From contig NZ_LUKG01000006.1 of NCBI RefSeq assembly GCF_001601815.1, forward strand, positions 33,914 through 70,086: a DNA stretch of 36,173 bases, given 5' to 3'. Below, piece after piece: positions 26,302 to 36,173 of this stretch. The notes below the pieces were generated by a model that was not told the DNA's origin, searched no databases, and saw nothing but the letters and a program-made list of their open reading frames with translations. Every line of letters starts with the position of its first letter. Within the stretch, counting starts at the first letter, position 1. The position numbers and the translations under genes are program-made. The DNA is from Flavihumibacter sp. CACIAM 22H1 (GTDB lineage Bacteria; Bacteroidota; Bacteroidia; Chitinophagales; Chitinophagaceae).

Positions 26302-26332
26302 TTTGTTTTTTCGGTAAGGGGTTCTACCTTTG
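26302..26332 (+). promoter_or_regulatory. consensus Bacteroidota promoter of rpsL-rpsG
   Basis: TTTG (26302-26305), a spacer of 19 bp, then TACCTTTG (26325-26332): both elements and the spacing match the Bacteroidota housekeeping promoter. It would start a transcript about 20 bp before the rpsL ATG, leaving a very short leader. Confidence 0.85.
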
Positions 26333-26356
26333 CCGTCCCAAATAAATAAGGTTAGA

Positions 26357-26743
26357 ATGCCTACAATTCAGCAATTAGTAAGAAAAGGTAGAGAAATCAT
26401 CAAGGCAAAAAGCAAGTCCAGAGCGCTGGATGCTTGTCCTCAACGCAGAGGTGTTTGTACCCGTGTGTACACCACTACGCCAAAAAAACCGAACTCTGCA
26501 CTTCGTAAAGTAGCCAAGGTTCGTTTAACTAATAAAGTAGAAGTGATCGCCTATATTCCGGGTGAAGGTCATAATCTGCAGGAACACTCGATTGTTCTTA
26601 TCCGTGGTGGTCGTGTGAAGGATTTGCCAGGTGTACGTTACCATATTGTTCGTGGTAGCCTTGATACAGCCGGTGTGAAAGACAGAAAGCAGAGCCGTTC
26701 TAAATACGGAACTAAGAGAGACAAACAAACTGGTAAAAAATAA
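26357..26743 (+). CDS. rpsL: 30S ribosomal protein S12
   Basis: uS12, at the decoding centre of the small subunit. The 128 residues start [13 protein letters not shown] and include the hallmark [13 protein letters not shown] and [24 protein letters not shown] blocks. The lysines in PKKPNSA and RVKDLPG, where streptomycin-resistance changes usually occur, are the wild-type residues. The ORF track places the start nine codons upstream, in the transcription-start region; ATG 26357 is correct. It is the first gene of a two-gene unit with rpsG, separated by 17 bp. Confidence 0.98.
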
Positions 26744-26760
26744 TATAAAATAGTTCTCCG

Positions 26761-27228
26761 ATGCGTAAAGCACAAGCCAAAAAACTTCCTCTGGCGCCCG
26801 ATGCCAGGTACAATGATAAACTGGTTACCCGTTTTGTCAACAATATCATGTGGCAAGGGAAAAAAAGCGTAGCCTTTGAAATTTTCTATGATGCCGTTGA
26901 CAAGGTGAGCAAAATCACCAATGAAGATGGGTATGAAATCTGGAAAAGAGCAATTGCCAACGTAACGCCTGCTGTTGAGGTACGTAGCCGTCGTATCGGT
27001 GGTGCAACCTTCCAGATTCCTTCTGAGGTTCGTCCGGATAGAAAAATTTCCTTAAGCATTAAGTGGCTGATCCGTTTCAGTCGTGAGCGTAATGGCCGTA
27101 GTATGGCTGATAAGCTGGCGAATGAGATCGTTGCTGCCAGCAAAGGTGAAGGTGGAGCTTTCAAAAAGAAAGAAGATACACACCGTATGGCTGAAGCAAA
27201 CAAGGCATTCTCACATTTCCGCATCTAA
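26761..27228 (+). CDS. rpsG: 30S ribosomal protein S7
   Basis: uS7, a primary 16S rRNA-binding protein of the 30S head. The 155 residues are normal length, begin [14 protein letters not shown] and hold the familiar [32 protein letters not shown] and RHS-like [16 protein letters not shown] segments. In many bacteria rpsG is followed by fusA; here a strong terminator at 27253-27285 comes first and an unrelated gene follows, so the ribosomal unit has only two genes. Confidence 0.98.
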
Positions 27229-27252: not shown

Positions 27253-27285
27253 AACCGGTCTGTCTTGGGCAGACCGGTTTTTTTT
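27253..27285 (+). terminator. strong rho-independent terminator after rpsG
   Basis: AACCGGTCTG and CAGACCGGTT form a perfect 10-bp stem around a seven-base TCTTGGG loop, followed by a run of T. It ends the rpsL-rpsG unit. Confidence 0.95.
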
Positions 27286-27352: not shown

Positions 27353-28234
27353 ATGTCTACCAGAAGAAGCTTCCTGAAGCAGGCTGCCCTGCTTACCCCG
27401 GCTGCTTTAGCCTTACCCGATTTGTTATTTGCAGAGAAAAAGCTACGATCTGTAGGAATTCAATTGTATACATTGAGAGACCTGGTTGCCAAAGACCCCC
27501 GATCTACCATTGAGCAGGTAGCGGCGGCAGGGTATAAGGAGGTGGAATTGTATGGGTTTGGCGGTGGAAAATTCTTTGGAATTCCGGTAGCAGAGCTTGC
27601 TTCTTTTATGTCCAATTTGGGCCTCTCTGTGCCAAGTGGCCATTATATGCCGTCCAAGTTTTTATTCACAGAAGAGGATGCGGGAAAGGCCGAATTAGAG
27701 GAACATATCCAGGCAGCCCTTACTATGAAGAGCAGTTATCTTACCATTCCCTATTTACCCGGAGATAAAAGAGCCAACCTGGATGATTATAAGAAGATTG
27801 CCGCAAAATTGAATATTGCCGGGGAAGCTTGCAAAAAAGCAGGTATTCAGCTGGCTTACCATAACCATGATTTTGAGTTTACCAATCATGGCGGACAAAC
27901 GGGGTACGATCTGATGACTTCAGCAACTGATGCCGACCTGGTTAAATGGGAATTAGACCTCTACTGGGTTGTGTATGCCGGGCTGGATCCGGTTCAGCTC
28001 TTTACAAAATTAAAAGGGCGGGTTCCGATGTGGCATGTAAAGGACATGGATAAAGCCAATCGTTCGCAAAACACCGAAATAGGTAATGGAACGATCGATT
28101 GGAAACGGATTTTTAAGGCCGCTAAAACCTCCGGCTTGAAGCATTTCTTTGTTGAACAGGAAAACAACTATGCACCGGATTATATTAAAAGCATCCAGCG
28201 CAGCATTGGGTTTATTAAAGGAAACCTGGTATAA
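27353..28234 (+). CDS. Tat-exported xylose-isomerase-like TIM-barrel protein
   Basis: A 293-residue sugar isomerase/epimerase-type protein. The N-terminus is a twin-arginine signal (STRRSFLK followed by a hydrophobic stretch ending LLFA), so the folded, probably metal-loaded enzyme is sent to the periplasm. The barrel shows VGIQLYTLRD (about 34-43), YHNHDFEF (about 169-176), WELDLYW (about 199-205), WHVKD (about 227-231) and FVEQEN (about 266-271), the usual positions for metal and substrate ligands. The ORF track begins 90 codons upstream across the rpsG end and its terminator; ATG 27353 is clearly the start. It converges with the ThuA gene of the sugar locus. Confidence 0.88.
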   Translation: MSTRRSFLKQAALLTPAALALPDLLFAEKKLRSVGIQLYTLRDLVAKDPRSTIEQVAAAGYKEVELYGFGGGKFFGIPVAELASFMSNLGLSVPSGHYMPSKFLFTEEDAGKAELEEHIQAALTMKSSYLTIPYLPGDKRANLDDYKKIAAKLNIAGEACKKAGIQLAYHNHDFEFTNHGGQTGYDLMTSATDADLVKWELDLYWVVYAGLDPVQLFTKLKGRVPMWHVKDMDKANRSQNTEIGNGTIDWKRIFKAAKTSGLKHFFVEQENNYAPDYIKSIQRSIGFIKGNLV

Positions 28235-28242
28235 GGTATAAA

Positions 28243-28267
28243 GAAGTGATTCTAACCGAATCACTTC
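28243..28267. terminator. convergent-gene hairpin
   Basis: GAAGTGATTC and GAATCACTTC form a perfect 10-bp stem with a TAACC loop between the convergent TIM-barrel and ThuA genes; the right arm covers the last ThuA codons. The tail after it on the plus strand (TTCATTATTT) has only a modest T content, so termination efficiency may be moderate. Confidence 0.6.
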
Positions 28268-29028
28268 TTCATTATTTCCCGGATTCCATTTTCCACATGC
28301 ATTAGAAACTTCTCATCCTGGTAGGCTTCACTGGTATGGCCGAGGCCGGTATAGAACATTTTTCCCCCATCAAAATCCTGGTACCAGGCAATTGGGTGGT
28401 AAGAGCCCATCTTTCCGCCCTGATAGGATTTTTCATCCAACTCCAGCAACACTTTAATGGCTGGTGATACTGATTTGTAATTGTACCATTCATCTTTATG
28501 GAGCCAGTTGGAACCAAGATGGGCTGTAGCCGGGTGTTTTTCTTTTACCAGGATACTGGCTGTTTGTATAGCCGGATGCGATTCAAAATAACCGCCTATC
28601 AGTTGGTTGTACCAGGGCCATTCATATTCACAATCTGCTGCGGCATGAATACCTGCTACACCGCCGCCACTCCGAACATACTGCTGCAAGGCCGCTTCTT
28701 CGTTTTTGCCAAATACATTGCCAGTGGTATTGAGTAATACTATGGCATGGAATTTCTTTAAATTTTCAGCATTGAAAACCAAACTGTCTTCCGTTGCGGT
28801 AATATCCCAATTATTACGGGCTCCGATTTTCTGAATGGCCTTAATTCCATCCGGAATGGATGCATGGCGAAATCCCCGGGTGGCAGAAAATACCAGTATG
28901 GATTTTCTGCTTTGCTGCACGGTGGTACTGCCGGAACCTATTGCCTTTGGGCTGGGTAGGGGAGCATCCTGCAGTAATAAGGCCGCTGCAAGTACCGGAG
29001 AAAAGAATAGCAGATGCAATGATTTCAT
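28261..29028 (-). CDS. exported ThuA-domain protein
   Basis: A 255-residue ThuA/glutamine-amidotransferase-like protein with an N-terminal signal peptide (LHLLFFSPVLAAALLL). Family blocks are FSATRGFRHASIPDG (about 48-62), NTTGNVF, AGIHAAADCEYEWPWYNQLIGG, the KDEWYNY stretch, SYHPIAWYQ and MFYTGLGHTSEAY. ThuA was first linked to trehalose use in rhizobia, where 3-keto sugars are intermediates; the exact reaction of this exported Bacteroidota type is not established. It is last on the minus-strand sugar operon but sits behind an internal terminator at 29048-29074, so it may also have its own transcription start. Confidence 0.9.
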   Translation of the reverse strand: MKSLHLLFFSPVLAAALLLQDAPLPSPKAIGSGSTTVQQSRKSILVFSATRGFRHASIPDGIKAIQKIGARNNWDITATEDSLVFNAENLKKFHAIVLLNTTGNVFGKNEEAALQQYVRSGGGVAGIHAAADCEYEWPWYNQLIGGYFESHPAIQTASILVKEKHPATAHLGSNWLHKDEWYNYKSVSPAIKVLLELDEKSYQGGKMGSYHPIAWYQDFDGGKMFYTGLGHTSEAYQDEKFLMHVENGIREIMKK

Positions 29029-29047
29029 GATTTCATTGTTTCAGATG

Positions 29048-29074
29048 AAAAAAAGCTGCTTCTTTCGAAGCAGC
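29048..29074 (-). terminator. terminator between the DUF1080 and ThuA genes
   Basis: On the minus strand GCTGCTTC-GAAA-GAAGCAGC is a perfect 8-bp stem with a GAAA tetraloop, followed by seven T. It lies 7 bp after the DUF1080 stop, upstream of thuA. Confidence 0.85.
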
Positions 29075-29080
29075 CTTTCT

Positions 29081-29815
29081 TTATAACTTTCGGATTTTGA
29101 TGTTTTTATACCATACATTGTCGCCATGGTCCTGCAAGGCAATATGACCACTGTGGAAAGTTCCGAAATCTTCCATGTTTCTGAACTTGCTGTTCGCCAG
29201 CAGGTTCTTCCAGTTCTCATCCCAGAGCGTGGTTTTTACAACGGTGGTTCCGTTTAATTTTAATTCCAACTGCCCATCTTTCTGAATAATTTCAGCCAGG
29301 TTCCATTCTCCAACTGGTTTTACTGTTTCTACAGACGATTTAATGATGTCGTATAAATCACCTGCACGGTGTTTTTGAATTTTACCATCATTATGGCCAT
29401 CGTTGTCAAGAACCTGCATTTCCATGCCGGTATGCCAAACATGTTCGTATTTTGAACGGTCGTCTTTAATGTTGAAGATGATACCACTGTTTCCTTTGGG
29501 AGATATTTTCCATTCTACTTTGAAGTGGTAGTTCTCAAAAGCATCGTTGGTTACAATATCACCACCGCCGGACGTTTGCCAGCCAGCTTTATTACTGGCG
29601 TCCAGGTACAAAGTACCATTGGCTACTTTCCAGGCAGCGCCTACTTCATTTTTACCATAGGTATGCCAGCCATTGGTAGTAGTACCGTCAAATAGTAATA
29701 CCCATCCTTCTTTTTTTTCTTTCTTGGAAAGTGTATTATCTGCTGTCAGCTCTTTTGAGCTGGAGCAGGCACCTGAACCAATCAATGCCAAACCAACCAG
29801 GAGTGTGCGGATCAT
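29081..29815 (-). CDS. DUF1080 lipoprotein, 3-keto-disaccharide hydrolase family
   Basis: A 244-residue lipoprotein (lipobox SGAC, acylated Cys at 17) with one DUF1080 (3-keto-disaccharide hydrolase) domain, a jelly-roll glycosidase-like fold. Typical blocks are EGWVLLFDGTTTNGWHTYG, GDIVTNDAFENYHFKVEWKISPKGNSGI, EMQVLDNDGHNDG, VGEWNLAEI and FGTFHSGHIALQDHGD. Members cleave glycosides whose C3 is already oxidised to a ketone. It lies one base before the cytochrome gene's end and would act in the periplasm, after the GMC dehydrogenase. The actual substrate is unknown. Confidence 0.92.
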   Translation of the reverse strand: MIRTLLVGLALIGSGACSSSKELTADNTLSKKEKKEGWVLLFDGTTTNGWHTYGKNEVGAAWKVANGTLYLDASNKAGWQTSGGGDIVTNDAFENYHFKVEWKISPKGNSGIIFNIKDDRSKYEHVWHTGMEMQVLDNDGHNDGKIQKHRAGDLYDIIKSSVETVKPVGEWNLAEIIQKDGQLELKLNGTTVVKTTLWDENWKNLLANSKFRNMEDFGTFHSGHIALQDHGDNVWYKNIKIRKL

Positions 29816-29816
29816 A

Positions 29817-30206
29817 TTACTTGGTTTTTAATGACAGGATATATTTTACCATTGTTTTTGCGTCGTCTTCCGATACCTGCGGGTGCGGGGTCATAGGTAC
29901 TTCTCCCCATACGCCACTGCCACCTTTGATAATTTTTCCGGCCAGTTCTGCAATTGTTGCATCATTTGCCGTGTATTTATTAGCAACATCCTGGTAAGAG
30001 GGGCCAATTGCTTTTTCATTTACTTTATGGCAGGTAAGGCAATCGCTTCCTGCAATCAGTTCAATTCCTTTTTCTTCGTCTGCAGAAGGGCCTGCAGTTG
30101 CCGCCTGTTCTGTAGCCGGAGCATCGGCTTTCTTCTCTTCCGCAGCCTGGTTTCCACAAGCAAAGGCGATGGCGCTAATGCCTGCCAAAATCACATACTT
30201 TTTCAT
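29817..30206 (-). CDS. lipoprotein c-type cytochrome
   Basis: A 129-residue monohaem cytochrome c. The signal ends in a lipobox with Cys17 (AFAC), then comes an Ala/Glu/Lys-rich linker, and the haem-binding CLTCH at residues 56-60. The GEVPMTPHPQVSE stretch supplies the likely axial Met105, as in cytochrome c551/c552 types. It is anchored to the periplasmic face of a membrane and could carry electrons from the GMC dehydrogenase to the respiratory chain, a role that matches its place between the isomerase and DUF1080 genes, 1 and 10 bp away. Confidence 0.93.
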   Translation of the reverse strand: MKKYVILAGISAIAFACGNQAAEEKKADAPATEQAATAGPSADEEKGIELIAGSDCLTCHKVNEKAIGPSYQDVANKYTANDATIAELAGKIIKGGSGVWGEVPMTPHPQVSEDDAKTMVKYILSLKTK

Positions 30207-30216
30207 GTTTGTTTGT

Positions 30217-31272
30217 TTATTGAATACCTAAAATCTTTTTATTGAATGCTTCATCGGATCCGGTTCCGGCAAAATCGTCGAAGGCTTTTTCCGTGACCCG
30301 GATGATATGATCCTGTATAAAGATAGCACCTTCTTTCGCACCATCTTCCGGATGTTTCAGGCAACATTCCCATTCCATAACGGCCCATCCTTTATAATCG
30401 TAGGCAGCCAGTTTGCTGAAGATGCTGCTGAAATCTACCTGTCCGTCTCCCAATGAACGGAATCGTCCGGCCCTGTTAATCCAGCTTTGGTAACCACCAT
30501 ACACCCCCTGTCTTCCTGTGGGGTTAAATTCCGCATCTTTTACATGGAACATGCGGATTCGTTCGTGATAAATATCTATGTAGTCGAGGTAATCGAGGCA
30601 TTGTAATACAAAATGGGAGGGGTCGTATAACAGGCAGGCCCTGGCGTGGTTGTTTACTTCCTTCAGGAACAGCTCATAGGAAACCCCATCGTGCAGGTCT
30701 TCTCCGGGATGTATTTCATAACAAAGGTCTACCCCGTTTTCATCAAAAACATCCAGGATTGGTTTCCATCGTTTTGCCAGCTCCTTAAAACCGGTTTCTA
30801 CCAATCCGGCCGGCCGTTGCGGCCAGGGATAAACGGTATGCCATAGCAAGGAACCACTGAAAGTAGCATGGGCATTCAGTCCCAGGTTCTGCGAAGCTTT
30901 TGCTGCATACTTTAGTTGTTGAACTGCCCATTCGGTACGGGCTGTTGCATTACCATGAACGGCCGCCGGAGCAAATCCGTCAAATAGTTCATTGTAAGCC
31001 GGGTGTACAGCCACCAGCTGTCCTTGTAAATGCGTCGATAATTCTGTTATGGATAGCCCGCATTCTTCTACCGTGCCGCGTATTTCATCGGCATAGGTTT
31101 TACTTTCGGCTGCTTTTTGTAAGTCAATGCATCTTGCATCCCAGGTAGGGATCTGAACGCCTTTAAAGCCGAGTGCTTCTGCCCACAGGCAAATAGACTG
31201 TAGGTTATTAAAGGGGGCCTGATCGCCCAGAAACTGGGCTAAAAATATACCCGGACCTTTTAGTGTTGTCAT
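30217..31272 (-). CDS. sugar phosphate isomerase/epimerase-like TIM-barrel protein
   Basis: A 351-residue AP-endonuclease-2-like TIM-barrel protein without signal peptide, so it should be cytoplasmic. Likely metal ligands are E186 (YEIHPGED), D217 (YDPSHF), H243 (FHVKDAE) and E300 (VMEWE). Enzymes of this superfamily include YcjR, which epimerises 3-keto sugars, and the LgdB-type enzymes of levoglucosan breakdown. The association with a Gfo/Idh/MocA enzyme 39 bp upstream is the same pairing seen in those pathways. The reaction in this organism (isomerisation, epimerisation or elimination) cannot be fixed. Confidence 0.88.
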   Translation of the reverse strand: MTTLKGPGIFLAQFLGDQAPFNNLQSICLWAEALGFKGVQIPTWDARCIDLQKAAESKTYADEIRGTVEECGLSITELSTHLQGQLVAVHPAYNELFDGFAPAAVHGNATARTEWAVQQLKYAAKASQNLGLNAHATFSGSLLWHTVYPWPQRPAGLVETGFKELAKRWKPILDVFDENGVDLCYEIHPGEDLHDGVSYELFLKEVNNHARACLLYDPSHFVLQCLDYLDYIDIYHERIRMFHVKDAEFNPTGRQGVYGGYQSWINRAGRFRSLGDGQVDFSSIFSKLAAYDYKGWAVMEWECCLKHPEDGAKEGAIFIQDHIIRVTEKAFDDFAGTGSDEAFNKKILGIQ

Positions 31273-31289
31273 GGAGGGGTGTTTGTGAA

Positions 31290-31306
31290 TAGTGAATAGT
31301 AAATGG
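31290..31306 (+). repeat. short dispersed repeat copy (17 bp)
   Basis: TAGTGAATAGTAAATGG, identical to the minus strand of 15889-15905. It lies in the 39-bp gap between the isomerase and Gfo/Idh/MocA genes, next to further GTGAAT units (31285-31290 and 31307-31312). Confidence 0.5.
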
Positions 31307-31311
31307 GTGAA

Positions 31312-32469
31312 TCAGAGGGTGGTCCATTTTAATTCGCTCTGGCTGCTTTCCACCACTTTTTCGATGAATAGCATGCCCCGGATTCCGGCATCAATACCCG
31401 GAAAATCGAGCCACTCCTGTTTGGGTTCGGTTTCATTGAGTCGGCATTGTAAAGTAAATGCAAAGTTCCGGTAGATATTGGCAAAAGCTTCCAGGTATCC
31501 CTCCGGATGCCCCGGAGGCGTTCGGGTTCCCAATTGAGCAAAACTGCTGAGGTAGGGAGAACCGGCCCGGTATACCTGGGTAGGTTCGTGTAACCATTTT
31601 ACCAGAAGGGTATTGGCATCTTCCTGTTTCCATTCAATGCCACCTTTTTCTCCATACACACGGATCTTCAGGTTATTTTCTTCACCTGCTGCAACCTGCG
31701 TGGCAAATAGGTTGCCGGTTACGCCATTTTCCATCCGCAGTAATACAGAACCATCATCATCCAGCAATCTGCCTGGTACGGTTATCTGCAGGTCAGCACA
31801 AATAGCTTCTACTTTCAAACCGGTTACATATTCTGCCATATTGAACGCATGGGTGCCAATATCACCCATGCAGCCCGAAATTCCACTACGTTTGGGGTCC
31901 GTTCTCCAGGCAGCCTGCTTATAGTTACTACCTTCTCTAAATTCGGTTAACCATCCCTGTGGGTATTCAACATACACTTTGCGAAGTTTCCCGATTTTTC
32001 CGGCTGCCAGTAATTGCCGGGCTTCCTTGATCATAGGATAACCGGTATAGGTATGTGTAAGACAAAACAGTGCGCCGGTTTTTTCGATCACCTGTTTCAG
32101 TTCCACTGCCTCTGCATAGGTGAACGTGACAGGCTTATCCAAAACCACATGAAAACCGTTTTCCATGGCTAGTTTGGCCGGCCCGAAATGCATATGATTG
32201 GGCGTTACTATAGCTATGAAATCCATTCGCTGATCCGCGGGTAATTCCTTTTCTGTGCGGATCATTTCTTCGTAAGAGGCATAACTGCGAATAGCTGGTA
32301 AGCGCAGGGCTGCGCCAGTTGCTTTGGATTTTTCCGCACTGCTGCTGAAGGCTCCGCATACCAACTCAATTTCACCATCGAGCCAGGCTGCCATGCGATG
32401 AACAGCGCCAATAAAAGCATCCAGGCTGCCACCTACCATGCCCATTCGTAATTTTCTTGCAATCGCCAT
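31312..32469 (-). CDS. Gfo/Idh/MocA-family oxidoreductase
   Basis: A 385-residue NAD(P)-dependent sugar oxidoreductase without an export signal. The Rossmann start is RMGMVGGSLDAFIGAVH, the AIVTPNHMHFGPA strand-loop follows, then the family lysine in VVLDKPVTFT, and the GDIGTHAFNMAEYVTG helix carrying the second catalytic His. Related enzymes oxidise glucosides at C3 (E. coli YcjS) or reduce and oxidise inositols. It lies between the dehydrogenase pair and the isomerase in the operon, suggesting action on a 3-keto sugar after uptake. Substrate unknown. Confidence 0.92.
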   Translation of the reverse strand: MAIARKLRMGMVGGSLDAFIGAVHRMAAWLDGEIELVCGAFSSSAEKSKATGAALRLPAIRSYASYEEMIRTEKELPADQRMDFIAIVTPNHMHFGPAKLAMENGFHVVLDKPVTFTYAEAVELKQVIEKTGALFCLTHTYTGYPMIKEARQLLAAGKIGKLRKVYVEYPQGWLTEFREGSNYKQAAWRTDPKRSGISGCMGDIGTHAFNMAEYVTGLKVEAICADLQITVPGRLLDDDGSVLLRMENGVTGNLFATQVAAGEENNLKIRVYGEKGGIEWKQEDANTLLVKWLHEPTQVYRAGSPYLSSFAQLGTRTPPGHPEGYLEAFANIYRNFAFTLQCRLNETEPKQEWLDFPGIDAGIRGMLFIEKVVESSQSELKWTTL

Positions 32470-32499
32470 GTAATCGTATTTAATTAACGGATCGTCTTT

Positions 32500-33159
32500 T
32501 TATTTATAACTGACGCATTCCTTGTTTTCTTTTTCGGTGTAGGCCAGGTTGTATTGTTTCAATACGTCTTCTGGCACTCCATTCCACTGGTTGGGTTTAT
32601 TACCTGCGTAACCGATGTCCTTAACACCGATTTCTGAGGTATAAAAACCGGTACAGGTAAGGTCTCGCATCAGGTTGAAAAAATTTACCCCGGGCCTCAT
32701 TTCTGCTTTTGCTTTATTAGGATATGCTATCTGATCTACCATGGCAATCCGTTGTTGCTCACTGCAATCCTTAAACGATTTTTCAAATTGGCGAAGGCAT
32801 TGTAAATCAAGCCAACGCAAGCCTCCCCGCATAGGGGTTTGATGCTCGGGCATATCCTTAACAATGAATTCTATAAAATCAGGCACTTTAGCATCTGTTG
32901 CGCTGCCGCTGACTTCGTCTTTCGGAATAATGATATCGGCAAGAAGGGCGATCGTTGCCATTTCGTGTGCATTAAAATATTTTTCCGCGTTGATTTTATT
33001 GAAATGCTCGGTTTCCTCCGGCATCCGGTCAATTTTGCCTGTAGTTCCTTCGGTTTTGGCGGGTTCGGCTTTTTTGTCTGTTTCTTTACAGGCATCCAGC
33101 AGAAGTCCGGTAGAAATGGTTCCCAGTGCAATTGCTTTGAGTGATTTTCTTCTGTCCAT
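32500..33159 (-). CDS. gluconate 2-dehydrogenase subunit 3-like (hitch-hiker) protein
   Basis: A 219-residue small subunit of a membrane-associated sugar dehydrogenase. The N-terminus has a twin arginine (MDRRKSLKAI), a hydrophobic stretch and a lipobox-like LLDAC with Cys24, so it is likely Tat-exported and lipid-anchored. The folded part contains FNAHEMATIALLADIIIPKDEVSGSA, characteristic of the family, and FNLMRDLTCTGFYTSEIG. In related glucoside 3-dehydrogenases and FAD-glucose dehydrogenases this subunit carries the signal that exports the catalytic GMC partner, which has none. It lies 12 bp after the GMC gene. Confidence 0.92.
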   Translation of the reverse strand: MDRRKSLKAIALGTISTGLLLDACKETDKKAEPAKTEGTTGKIDRMPEETEHFNKINAEKYFNAHEMATIALLADIIIPKDEVSGSATDAKVPDFIEFIVKDMPEHQTPMRGGLRWLDLQCLRQFEKSFKDCSEQQRIAMVDQIAYPNKAKAEMRPGVNFFNLMRDLTCTGFYTSEIGVKDIGYAGNKPNQWNGVPEDVLKQYNLAYTEKENKECVSYK

Positions 33160-33171
33160 ATCAGGGGAATT

Positions 33172-34911
33172 TTACAGGTTATTCTTTTTAAGCTGATCAA
33201 CAATATAGTCGCTGGCGCGCATGGACAAGGCCAGGATTGTCCAGGTTATGTTTTTATCGGCCTGTGACACAAAGGGGGCGCCGTCTACTACAAACAGGTT
33301 TTTGCAATCATGCGCCTGGTTCCATTTGTTGAGGGCAGAGTTTTTCGGATCGTTGCCCATTCTTGCGGTACCTGCTTCATGAATGATTTTTCCCGGCGCG
33401 TGCAGGCCGTAATTATTTTCCGGACCATCGTCGCCTCCCCAGGTAATAATGGCTCCCATGGAGTGCATAATTTCCTTAAAGGTTTCCTTCATGTGTTTTG
33501 CCTGATTGATTTCATGCTCGCTCCATTTTACATTGAATTTCAGCACAGGAATACCGTATTTATCCACCACATTTGGATCAATTTCGCAATTGTTATGACG
33601 GAAGGCAACGGCTTCTCCACGACCTGCCATTCCGATGGATGCACCATAGAAAAAGCGCTGGTCTTCTTTCAACGAAGCACCATAGCCACCTGCTTCTTTT
33701 TGTTTTCCGTGTACAAGGAATTTTCCATTCATGCTCTGAATACCCATACCAAACCCATAAGCAGGTTGTCCTTGTCCGCCCCAGTATTCGATGTGGTATC
33801 CCCGGGGAAAATCCAGTTTTTTGTTATCCAGCCACCAGGGAGAATATACGTGCATACCGCCCACACCGTCTTCGTTGTAGCGTTTCCGATCAAAGAGCTG
33901 TGGTAATACACCACCCATGTCTGCACCGGTAGAATCGTGCAGGTATCTTCCTACTACATCCGAGGAGTTTGCCAGTCCGTTCGGATGGCGTTGCGATTTC
34001 GAGTTCAGCATCAGTCGGGCACTTTCACAGGCACTGGCTGCCAGTACCACTACCCGGCCATTTACCTGGTATTCCATCATATCATCCTTACTCACGTAGG
34101 AAATGCCGGTCGCCAGTCCCTCTTTGTCGGTAAGTACTTCCCTTGCCATGGCATTGGGTATTACGTCAATATTACCCGTTTCAAGCGCTGGTTTTACCAA
34201 TACGGAAGAGGAAGAGAAGTCGGCATATACCTGGCATCCGCGTCCACACTGGCCACAATAGAAGCAGGCGCCTCTTTTATCATTAATAGGTTTGGTAAGC
34301 ATAGACATCCGCGAAGGGATTACCCGAACGCCTGCTTTGGTTGCGGCATTTTTTATAAACAGTTCATGCAGCCGGGGTTTGGGAGGCGGAAGGAAAACGC
34401 CGTCCGGATCATTATCCAGTCCCTCGTTGGTACCGAATACACCAATCAGTTCGTCTACCCGGTCATAATAGGGCTTAATATCATCATAACTGATGGGCCA
34501 GTCTTCTCCCAAACCATCGATACTTCTTCGTTTAAAATCCTTCGGTCCGAACCGAAGCGAAATTCTGCCCCAGTGGTTGGTGCGGCCACCCAGCATTCTG
34601 GCTCTGAACCAGTCCCATTGGGTACCCGCTGCCTTGGTATAGGGTTCGCCATCAATATCCCATCCCCAGTAACAGGCATCAAAATCGCCGAAGGGGCGAA
34701 AACGTGTTGCTGCGCCCCGGCGCGGAGACTCCCAGGGATTTTTTAACTGAGTTATATTTTTGGCAGGATCGTATAATGGCCCTGCTTCCAGTAAACAAAC
34801 TTTCAATCCGGCTTTGGCCAGCATGTAAGCAGCCATTCCGCCGCCGGCACCTGAACCAACAATAACCACATCGTATTTTACCGTTTGTTTTTTAATCTGT
34901 AATTCGCCCAT
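33172..34911 (-). CDS. GMC-family FAD-dependent sugar dehydrogenase, catalytic subunit
   Basis: A 579-residue flavoprotein. The FAD-binding Rossmann motif is [16 protein letters not shown], followed by LEAGP and the second FAD region [12 protein letters not shown] (about 105-116). An unusual cysteine set, C216-C219-C222-C226 in [11 protein letters not shown], resembles the Fe-S or electron-exit cluster of glucose and glucoside dehydrogenases. The C-terminal HEAGTARMG (H511) and NITWTI (N554) supply the usual active-site His-Asn. It has no signal peptide and is followed by the Tat-bearing small subunit. With the cytochrome it would oxidise a glycoside, probably at C3, in the periplasm. It heads the minus-strand operon, divergent from the MFS gene. 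Confidence 0.93.
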
Positions 34912-35023
34912 TGTTTGCTTGCAATTTGAATTAAGTAGGAGGGTTAAAATTAGGGGATAAAACCAAAAGCGGCCTGAAAATACGGAGGGATTTGGATACT
35001 TTAATCATCTGTTTTGGATATGA

Positions 35024-35031
35024 TAAATTTG
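35024..35031 (+). promoter_or_regulatory. -7 box TAAATTTG upstream of MFS gene
   Basis: Exact match to TAnnTTTG in the 233-bp divergent region (34912-35144), about 114 bp before ATG 35145. No TTTG at the ideal distance was found. No exact -7 box was found for the minus-strand GMC gene. Apart from the two palindromic motifs listed separately, I see nothing else in this region. Confidence 0.35.
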
Positions 35032-35037
35032 TTTAAC

Positions 35038-35051
35038 CTAACAACTGTTAT
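35038..35051. promoter_or_regulatory. imperfect palindrome related to the ilvE-region one
   Basis: CTAACAACTGTTAT matches 12 of 14 bases of the palindrome at 25149-25162; the arms TAACA/TGTTA are intact. It lies immediately after the -7 box at 35024-35031, where a repressor could block transcription of the MFS gene. Confidence 0.3.
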
Positions 35052-35103
35052 TTCCTTTTTTTTAACCATTGGCCGATTCCCTGATTGAAATATCCATGAA
35101 AGC

Positions 35104-35115
35104 CATAAATTTATG
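35104..35115. promoter_or_regulatory. 12-bp AT-rich palindrome
   Basis: CATAAATTTATG is a perfect palindrome 29 bp before the MFS start codon. It may be an operator, but palindromes of this base composition also arise by chance. Confidence 0.2.
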
Positions 35116-35144
35116 ACTGCTCTATAGTTAATAACCTTAATGAT

Positions 35145-36173
35145 ATGCAAGCCAACATCAATCGAAACAAACTGTTTGTAGCCAGTTGTCTTTCCCTCTT
35201 AGTTACATCTTTATCGTTTGGAATTCGTGCCGGTATCCTGGGCACATTAGGAACACAATTTAATTTAGGGGCTTCTGAACTGGCCTCTATTGCAGCTACT
35301 GCTTTCTGGGGTTTCCCGCTTGCCGTTGTCATTGGGGGAATGGTGGTAGACAGCATTGGCATGAAAAAACTTTTGCTGATTGCCTTTCTTTTTCACCTTG
35401 CCGGAATTTTGCTAACCGTATTTGCCGGTGGTTTCTGGACATTATTTTTATCAACACTGTTAATCGGCATTGCAAATGGTACGGTCGAAGCGGCTTGTAA
35501 TCCGCTTGTAGCAACCTTGTACCCCGATAATAAAACAACCAAGCTCAATCATTTCCATCTTTGGTTCCCGGGTGGAATTTTTATCGGAACACTGATCGTG
35601 TTTTTGTTCGAGAAGCTCGGTATTGGGTGGCAGGTGCAGGTGGGCATGATGCTGATTCCGACCGTGATTTATGGATACCTGTTTTCCAAGCTCGATTTCC
35701 CCGTTACAGAACGGGTTGCCTCGGGTGTTTCAACGGGGGAAATGTATAAATCTGTATTGAGCCCCCTGTTTATATTTATGTTTATCTGCATGTTTGGTAC
35801 GGCCATTACCGAGCTCTTTACCGGGCAATGGGTAGGAGTACTTTTAGGAAATGTGAGTGATAACCCGATCTTAATCCTCACCATCACTACGGGCGTAATG
35901 GTAGTTGGCCGTGGTTTGGCTGAACCCATTGTACATCGCTTTTCACCACAGGGCGTATTATTGATGTCTGCAATTATGGCGGCTATCGGCATTTATATGA
36001 TGAGTACGGTAACGGGTAGCAGCTTGTATATTGCCGCACTTATTTTTGGTATCGGGGTATGTTATTTCTGGCCTACCATGTTGGGCTTTGTAGCAGAAAA
36101 TATTCCCAAATCAGGTGCCTTGGGCCTGAACCTGATGGGCGGAGCCGGTATGTTTGCGGTTTCTATTTACACC
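35145..36173 (+). CDS. MFS transporter, partial
   Basis: The reading frame is open for 343 codons from ATG 35145 to the window end, so the ORF track omits it. It shows the first eight to ten transmembrane helices of a major-facilitator protein: SLSFGIRAGILG at helix 1, GGMVVDSIGMKK as the typical loop 2-3 motif, LLIGIANGTVEAACNP, HLWFPGGIFIG, and GTAITELFTGQWVG in the second half. The sequence type is like FucP/sugar-proton symporters. It is divergent from the sugar-oxidation operon and probably imports its substrate or a product. The C-terminal part lies beyond the window. Confidence 0.88.
   Translation, partial: MQANINRNKLFVASCLSLLVTSLSFGIRAGILGTLGTQFNLGASELASIAATAFWGFPLAVVIGGMVVDSIGMKKLLLIAFLFHLAGILLTVFAGGFWTLFLSTLLIGIANGTVEAACNPLVATLYPDNKTTKLNHFHLWFPGGIFIGTLIVFLFEKLGIGWQVQVGMMLIPTVIYGYLFSKLDFPVTERVASGVSTGEMYKSVLSPLFIFMFICMFGTAITELFTGQWVGVLLGNVSDNPILILTITTGVMVVGRGLAEPIVHRFSPQGVLLMSAIMAAIGIYMMSTVTGSSLYIAALIFGIGVCYFWPTMLGFVAENIPKSGALGLNLMGGAGMFAVSIYT

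Follow-up and report, generated by a model that had tools for sequence, protein, structure and literature searches.

A Flavihumibacter gene cluster predicted to cleave glycosides by oxidation, elimination, hydration and reduction in two compartments

Introduction

Flavihumibacter sp. CACIAM 22H1, a member of the Chitinophagaceae, carries a cluster of nine genes whose products are predicted to act on glycosides. We analyzed it within a stretch of 36,173 nucleotides (the window; C6:33914-70086 of the 4.87-Mb genome, where C6 is contig NZ_LUKG01000006.1), of which it occupies positions 27,353 to 36,173. An earlier note, made from the sequence alone, had listed the nine genes and proposed that the locus oxidizes a glycoside at C3 outside the cytoplasm, cleaves it by a non-classical route and imports the product. 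Here, we describe the genes, the enzymes that they appear to encode and the route that we consider likely, namely oxidation and elimination outside the inner membrane followed by hydration and reduction inside it, with net hydrolysis of the glycoside.

Gene content and transcription

The open reading frame list contains all nine proteins, and each has a Pfam match above the curated cut-off. Seven of the genes lie on the minus strand. In order of transcription, they encode a type 1 GMC flavoprotein dehydrogenase subunit, a predicted glycoside 3-dehydrogenase (33172..34911; GMC_oxred_N/C); a small subunit with a twin-arginine translocation (Tat) signal and a lipobox (32500..33159; Gluconate_2-dh3, 128.3 bits); a cytoplasmic Gfo/Idh/MocA oxidoreductase, hereafter Gfo (31312..32469; GFO_IDH_MocA); a cytoplasmic TIM-barrel protein (30217..31272; AP_endonuc_2); a lipoprotein cytochrome c with the motif CLTCH, the likely electron acceptor of the dehydrogenase (29817..30206; Cytochrom_C, 37.4 bits); a DUF1080 lipoprotein (29081..29815; 3keto-disac_hyd); and an exported ThuA-domain protein (28261..29028; ThuA, 246.8 bits). 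The gaps between these genes are 12, 30, 39, 10, 1 and 52 bases, and the seven are therefore read as one operon.

Two plus-strand genes frame the operon. At one end, convergent with it, lies the gene for a Tat-exported, xylose-isomerase-like TIM barrel (27353..28234; AP_endonuc_2). At the other, divergent from it across a 233-base spacer, lies a major facilitator superfamily (MFS) transporter gene that continues beyond the window end and likely encodes the importer of the released sugar (35145..36173; MFS_1). A strong intrinsic terminator on the plus strand after rpsG (27253..27279; 12-pair stem, 7 GC pairs, T tract) stands between the ribosomal genes and the gene of the Tat TIM barrel and makes cotranscription of the latter with rpsL-rpsG unlikely. 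An inverted repeat with a 12-pair stem between the convergent TIM-barrel and ThuA genes (28241..28269) is a possible second terminator. A scan for Bacteroidota-type promoters gave matches no more numerous than expected.

The families, strands and export signals of the nine genes were all borne out as first listed.

Export signals

Signals were read directly from the sequence, and those of relatives were assigned with a simple motif and hydropathy test. The exported TIM barrel bears the Tat motif STRRSFLK, and the small subunit bears both a Tat signal and a lipobox (MDRRKSLK...LLLDAC). Lipoboxes are also present on the DUF1080 protein (GSGAC) and the cytochrome (AFAC), and ThuA has a Sec-type signal, while the GMC protein, the TIM barrel at 30217-31272 and Gfo have none. 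The relatives, whose sets include some duplicate loci, agree: a twin-arginine motif was found in 71 of 77 exported TIM barrels and in 16/16 small subunits, and a hydrophobic signal was missing from 126/126 relatives of the cytoplasmic TIM barrel and from 14/14 GMC proteins. TatC is encoded in the genome, and the small subunit is predicted to carry the GMC subunit through the Tat system. Since signals stand on the small subunit, the exported TIM barrel, the DUF1080 protein and the cytochrome, and none on the cytoplasmic TIM barrel or Gfo, oxidation and cleavage are predicted to take place outside the inner membrane, and hydration and NAD(P)H-dependent reduction inside.

The cytoplasmic enzymes

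The decisive identification is that of the cytoplasmic TIM barrel. It is 69.1% identical over 350 residues, its full length, to PDB 8ro4, named '2-hydroxy-3-keto-glucal hydratase', and on this strong homology we assign it as a 2-hydroxy-3-keto-glucal hydratase in place of the YcjR-type isomerase of the earlier note. Its gene is single-copy in the genome. The presence of a hydratase implies that an eliminated glycal is formed, and not only a hydrolyzed 3-keto sugar.

Over 242 residues, Gfo shares 52% identity with PDB 3v5n; the latter is in turn 99.6% identical to the Gfo protein adjoining the hydratase on Sinorhizobium meliloti pSymB. A Gfo of this type adjoins the hydratase in Sinorhizobium, Agrobacterium and Pelagibacterium, and residues K112, D203 and H207 are invariant in the homologue alignment. 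The protein most likely serves as the reductase of the final step, acting on a 3-keto sugar, probably a 3-keto-hexose. A 3-dehydrogenase of the YcjS or Lgd type, as once suggested, is not what the curated models indicate: Gfo scores 98.7 bits against the levoglucosan dehydrogenase model NF052479 (cut-off 650 bits) and 31.2 bits against the BT_2158 glycoside 3-dehydrogenase model NF058561 (cut-off 750 bits).

The probable cleaving enzymes

The exported TIM barrel matches PDB 8bvk, the O-glycoside beta-eliminase of Agrobacterium (AtOGE), with an E-value of 7e-22 and an overall identity of only 33% over 164 residues; 8tcd, 8tcs and 8tct are further relatives in the PDB. In AtOGE, His132, Asp163 and His189 are metal ligands, Glu233 coordinates weakly, His134 is catalytic and Glu161 belongs to an alternative metal site (PMC10628242). 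The residues H132, H134, E161, D163, H189 and E233 of AtOGE correspond to H170, H172, E200, D202, H228 and E268 of the Flavihumibacter protein, and all six are 100% conserved across 30 homologues. The protein is thus likely a Mn-dependent beta-eliminase of 3-keto-O-glycosides and hence a core enzyme; its position at the flank of the operon was correctly noted, its standing as a flank gene was not.

The DUF1080 lipoprotein scores 162.9 bits against 3keto-disac_hyd (PF06439; gathering cut-off 26.8), has 4jqt, 3osd, 8rr2 and 8tda as PDB relatives and is predicted to cleave 3-keto-glycosides, as a hydrolase or an eliminase. The idea of non-classical cleavage is supported; hydrolysis by DUF1080 is probably not the sole route, since the hydratase implies an eliminated glycal. 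We also considered whether DUF1080 and AtOGE-like TIM barrels exclude each other across loci, and found no support for this (p 0.42).

The dehydrogenases

The only strong PDB relatives of the window GMC protein are the large subunits of the Burkholderia-type glucose dehydrogenase and the fructose dehydrogenase complexes. It has an Fe-S-type motif, C-x5-C-x3-C, at 216, which is found in all six relatives compared, and HEAGT at 511. It is of the same subtype as the GMC protein of a Pseudoalteromonas hydratase cluster (47% identity) and belongs to another subfamily than the GMC protein of Ketogulonicigenium (33%), which lies in an Agrobacterium-type operon. The thought that the window subtype might be rare was rejected; it occurs in 50 of 199 genomes of the family and order, usually not beside a hydratase.

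A second dehydrogenase pair adds to the gene list just past the window. There, on the MFS strand, lie a TIM barrel with a Tat signal, whose relatives include D-tagatose/D-psicose 3-epimerases and the 3-keto-D-glucoside 4-epimerase 6wn6, and a second GMC protein (560 aa) with a second Tat/lipobox small subunit (L125:12035-14304). In four loci of the genus (L208, L209, L211 and L212), the second-type GMC gene is present in tandem copies.

Recurrence in other genomes

We counted the neighbors of the hydratase gene in 71 named loci with enough flanking sequence, and genes within 10 kb in 55 loci. The gene immediately upstream of the hydratase encodes Gfo in 66/71 loci; after the hydratase, there is a cytochrome c gene in 57 and a DUF1080 gene in 42, and 40 loci have all four. 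Within 10 kb of the hydratase, a GMC gene was found in 35 loci, an exported-type barrel in 31, an MFS gene in 20 and ThuA in 15. Among the sampled genomes of the family, 42 of 61 (~70%) have the hydratase. The core block recurs across Bacteroidota, with close versions on plasmids of Pseudoalteromonas and Xanthomonas; Xanthomonas sacchari has nearly the full gene set, and Ketogulonicigenium has the order HYD-Gfo-GMC-Sub3-TIM (HYD, hydratase). The arrangement is not due to chance, because it is syntenic across the species of the genus and its core recurs across the phylum.

A proposed route and its alternatives

We propose the following route. In the periplasm, the GMC protein, exported through Tat in complex with a small subunit that bears the signal and the lipid anchor, would oxidize the glycoside at C3 and pass electrons to the lipoprotein cytochrome c. 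Cleavage of the 3-keto-glycoside would then fall to the exported TIM barrel, the DUF1080 protein or both; for the TIM barrel at least, the active-site residues point to Mn-assisted beta-elimination, which would give 2-hydroxy-3-keto-glucal and the free aglycone. The MFS protein would import the glycal or the 3-keto-sugar. In the cytoplasm, the hydratase, on strong homology, is expected to turn the glycal into 3-keto-glucose, which Gfo, by homology and gene order, would reduce to the hexose with NAD(P)H. ThuA would be a frequent, non-essential helper. Homologues and gene order thus support the original proposal of oxidation outside the cytoplasm, unusual cleavage and product import, with C3 as the probable site on the strength of context. 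As the cluster has two different cleaving enzymes and, just past the window, a second dehydrogenase pair, it may accept a wide variety of anomers and aglycones.

Several observations weigh against this route. Glucose and fructose dehydrogenases act at C1 and C5, and since these are the best solved relatives of the window GMC protein, its C3 specificity rests on context; its sequence reveals neither substrate nor regiochemistry. Its identity to the second GMC protein is only 34%, and it is the second protein, not the one in the window, that is 68.5% identical to the GMC protein of the Agrobacterium-type operon in Ketogulonicigenium. The cargo of the MFS protein is a guess. There are 12 DUF1080 domain matches genome-wide, and the TIM barrel and the DUF1080 protein of the cluster may overlap in function with the products of the remaining DUF1080 genes. 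Finally, some loci have the hydratase and Gfo without a GMC gene or a cleaving enzyme within 10 kb.

The alternative that survives best, which we nevertheless hold to be unlikely, makes DUF1080 the main cleaving enzyme. It would hydrolyze the 3-keto-glycoside directly in the periplasm, 3-keto-glucose would be imported and reduced by Gfo, the hydratase would merely rescue by-product glycal, and the TIM barrel, under its own promoter, would be minor or unrelated. This fits a DUF1080 gene inside the operon and a TIM-barrel gene that is transcribed separately, past a terminator; the family is called a hydrolase by Pfam and in the literature (PMC9007349), and DUF1080 occurs without the TIM barrel in 17/55 loci. 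Yet no other partner of Gfo is as constant as the hydratase, which is kept even where DUF1080 is lacking, and this would be odd for an enzyme that deals with a by-product. The active site of the TIM barrel is, moreover, fully conserved, and its gene follows rpsG in 15/15 genomes of the genus.

A second alternative concerns ThuA, which on the genomic evidence is a frequent but dispensable accessory. It would instead perform a needed step, such as the cleavage of alpha-linked 3-keto-glycosides like 3-ketotrehalose, and the cluster would be a trehalose or sucrose pathway. In its favor, ThuA is part of the operon, and its presence within 10 kb of the hydratase in 15/55 loci far exceeds the ~1% that two ThuA genes per 4.9-Mb genome would give by chance. 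Its residues H128, D132, E134, H151, D179, E180, H211 and H231 are invariant. In Chitinophaga and others, a fusion of ~1140 residues, joining ThuA to a GSDH-type sugar dehydrogenase, PKD domains and cytochrome c, lies near the hydratase (14/80 loci, counted by open reading frame length and cytochrome match, with the domains checked for one), and this Flavihumibacter genome has one such fusion on another contig (C16; L238:5109-8549). We regard this alternative as quite improbable, given that two clusters of the genus (L208 and L211) lack ThuA but are otherwise intact, that it is missing from 40/55 loci, and that a literature search gave no biochemical function for the domain. A search for ThuA relatives in viral contigs returned none.

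The fusion also raised the question of whether it replaces the GMC dehydrogenase in Chitinophaga. A nearby GMC gene is lacking in 10 of 12 fusion loci vs 10 of 43 others (Fisher p 0.0003, a value inflated because most of the ten come from one genus). Replacement is not supported, as close GMC genes stand elsewhere in each of these 10 genomes. In one Chitinophaga locus, the fusion (L015:13476-16889) lies downstream of hydratase, DUF1080 and ThuA.

It is very improbable that the dehydrogenase is a periplasmic sugar or polyol dehydrogenase of the fructose, gluconate or glucose type acting elsewhere than at C3, with the remaining enzymes handling an unrelated keto-sugar such as inosose: its closest solved relatives and weak IolE- and IolG-type matches point that way, but the latter lie far under their cut-offs (53.7 and 69.4 bits for the two TIM barrels against the 290 bits of the IolE model TIGR04379, and 58.3 bits for Gfo against the 355 bits of the IolG-type model), the hydratase is 69% identical to an enzyme acting on a C3-keto glycal, and the link with DUF1080 points in the same direction.

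Relation to described systems

The logic of the proposed route and nearly every part of it have been described elsewhere (PMC10628242, PMC9007349), and the same gene sets stand in public plasmid records. The cluster is therefore not a new pathway, and the novelty first claimed for the full combination was overstated. What we add is a gene-by-gene assignment in a Bacteroidota cluster and the link, through the hydratase, to the work on DUF1080 and LacABC.

The GlycDH/OGE/HYD/Gfo system of A. tumefaciens likewise combines a GMC protein with a Tat small subunit, a Mn-dependent TIM-barrel eliminase, a hydratase and a Gfo reductase; there, the formation of the glycal by OGE was directly shown, and the HYD and Gfo steps were described as preliminary (PMC10628242). 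Flavihumibacter adds DUF1080, a lipoprotein cytochrome c, ThuA and an MFS importer. Its window GMC protein belongs to another subfamily, taking the Ketogulonicigenium protein as a stand-in for the operon type, and the GMC protein of that type lies past the window.

The LacABC-DUF1080 system of Caulobacter crescentus and its counterparts in Pedobacter, Indibacter and Algoriphagus (PMC9007349) follow the same logic, with a likeness at the level of Pfam classes: those of the GMC protein, the small subunit, cytochrome c and DUF1080 all occur in our cluster. Genetic work on lactose in Caulobacter found a part for LacABC and DUF1080 as well as for a transporter, two epimerases and a reductase, and did not settle what becomes of the 3-keto sugar (PMC9007349). 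In Flavihumibacter, the hydratase and Gfo would fill this gap, by homology, and ThuA is an extra.

The plasmid p1 of Pseudoalteromonas shioyasakiensis (NZ_CP077771, L236) has the order Gfo-HYD-MFS-DUF1080-GMC-Sub3-TIM, with identities to our cluster of 67% for HYD, 54% for Gfo, 53% for the MFS protein that lies between hydratase and DUF1080, 47% for GMC and 36% for DUF1080. It differs in lying on one strand throughout, and its annotation shows neither ThuA nor cytochrome c in the cluster.

Bacteroides loci of the BT2156-BT2160 type have TIM-barrel enzymes that act on 3-keto-glycosides. They resemble the Flavihumibacter locus in DUF1080, where BT2157 is a 3-ketotrehalose hydrolase (PMC9007349), and in the TIM-barrel relatives 8tcd/8tcs/8tct. 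Oxidation in the Bacteroides type is carried out by a Gfo/Idh 3-dehydrogenase of the BT_2158 family, to which the Flavihumibacter Gfo is no match.

The hydratase ties the literature on 3-keto-glycosides in Proteobacteria to a block found throughout Bacteroidota, including soil and aquatic members with many DUF1080 genes. It makes the fate of the 3-keto sugar open to test and predicts clearly in which compartment each step takes place, and the locus places ThuA, a widespread domain, in a tractable pathway. It is possible, though we would call it rather doubtful, that the cluster joins the DUF1080/LacABC route with the Agrobacterium elimination route, that the periplasmic DUF1080 lipoproteins of Bacteroidota are eliminases and that the MFS protein carries the reactive 3-keto-glycal inward. 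If so, the import of a glycal would be an unusual kind of sugar uptake.

Genomic setting

The block starts directly after rpsL and rpsG (26330-27228), and its right border is fusA (L125:15139 = C6:75139). Ten Flavihumibacter genomes were followed as far as fusA (L125, L204-L212), and each has the whole block between rpsG and fusA; the stretch read at locus L126 stops short of fusA and was left outside the ten. In these ten genomes, a 3-oxidation cluster of ~14 kb thus splits the usually contiguous str operon. A break unique to Flavihumibacter was rejected, as other genera of the family have gaps of 0.7-6 kb or more between rpsG and fusA, with other content. In Flavihumibacter petaseus, the nearest named relative by the hydratase gene (93%), the TIM barrel follows rpsG (L214) and the hydratase cluster lies elsewhere (L009), apparently on the same contig, since both loci are on a contig of 953,832 bases. 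One locus of the genus (L212, genome G066) lacks a Gfo match in the interval from the hydratase to the small subunit and is otherwise intact.

The window ends inside the MFS gene at an N run, an assembly gap (36173 / L125:10086). Both flanks of the run repeat the same 15 residues (NLMGGAGMFAVSIYT), as is usual at scaffold gaps. The interval from the second small subunit to fusA holds, on the opposite strand, a short histone-H1-like gene with Lys/Ala/Pro repeats (L125:14366-14869). The listed rpsL open reading frame (26330-26743) begins at an upstream TTG, and the ATG nine codons further on (26357, MPTIQQLV) is the likelier start.

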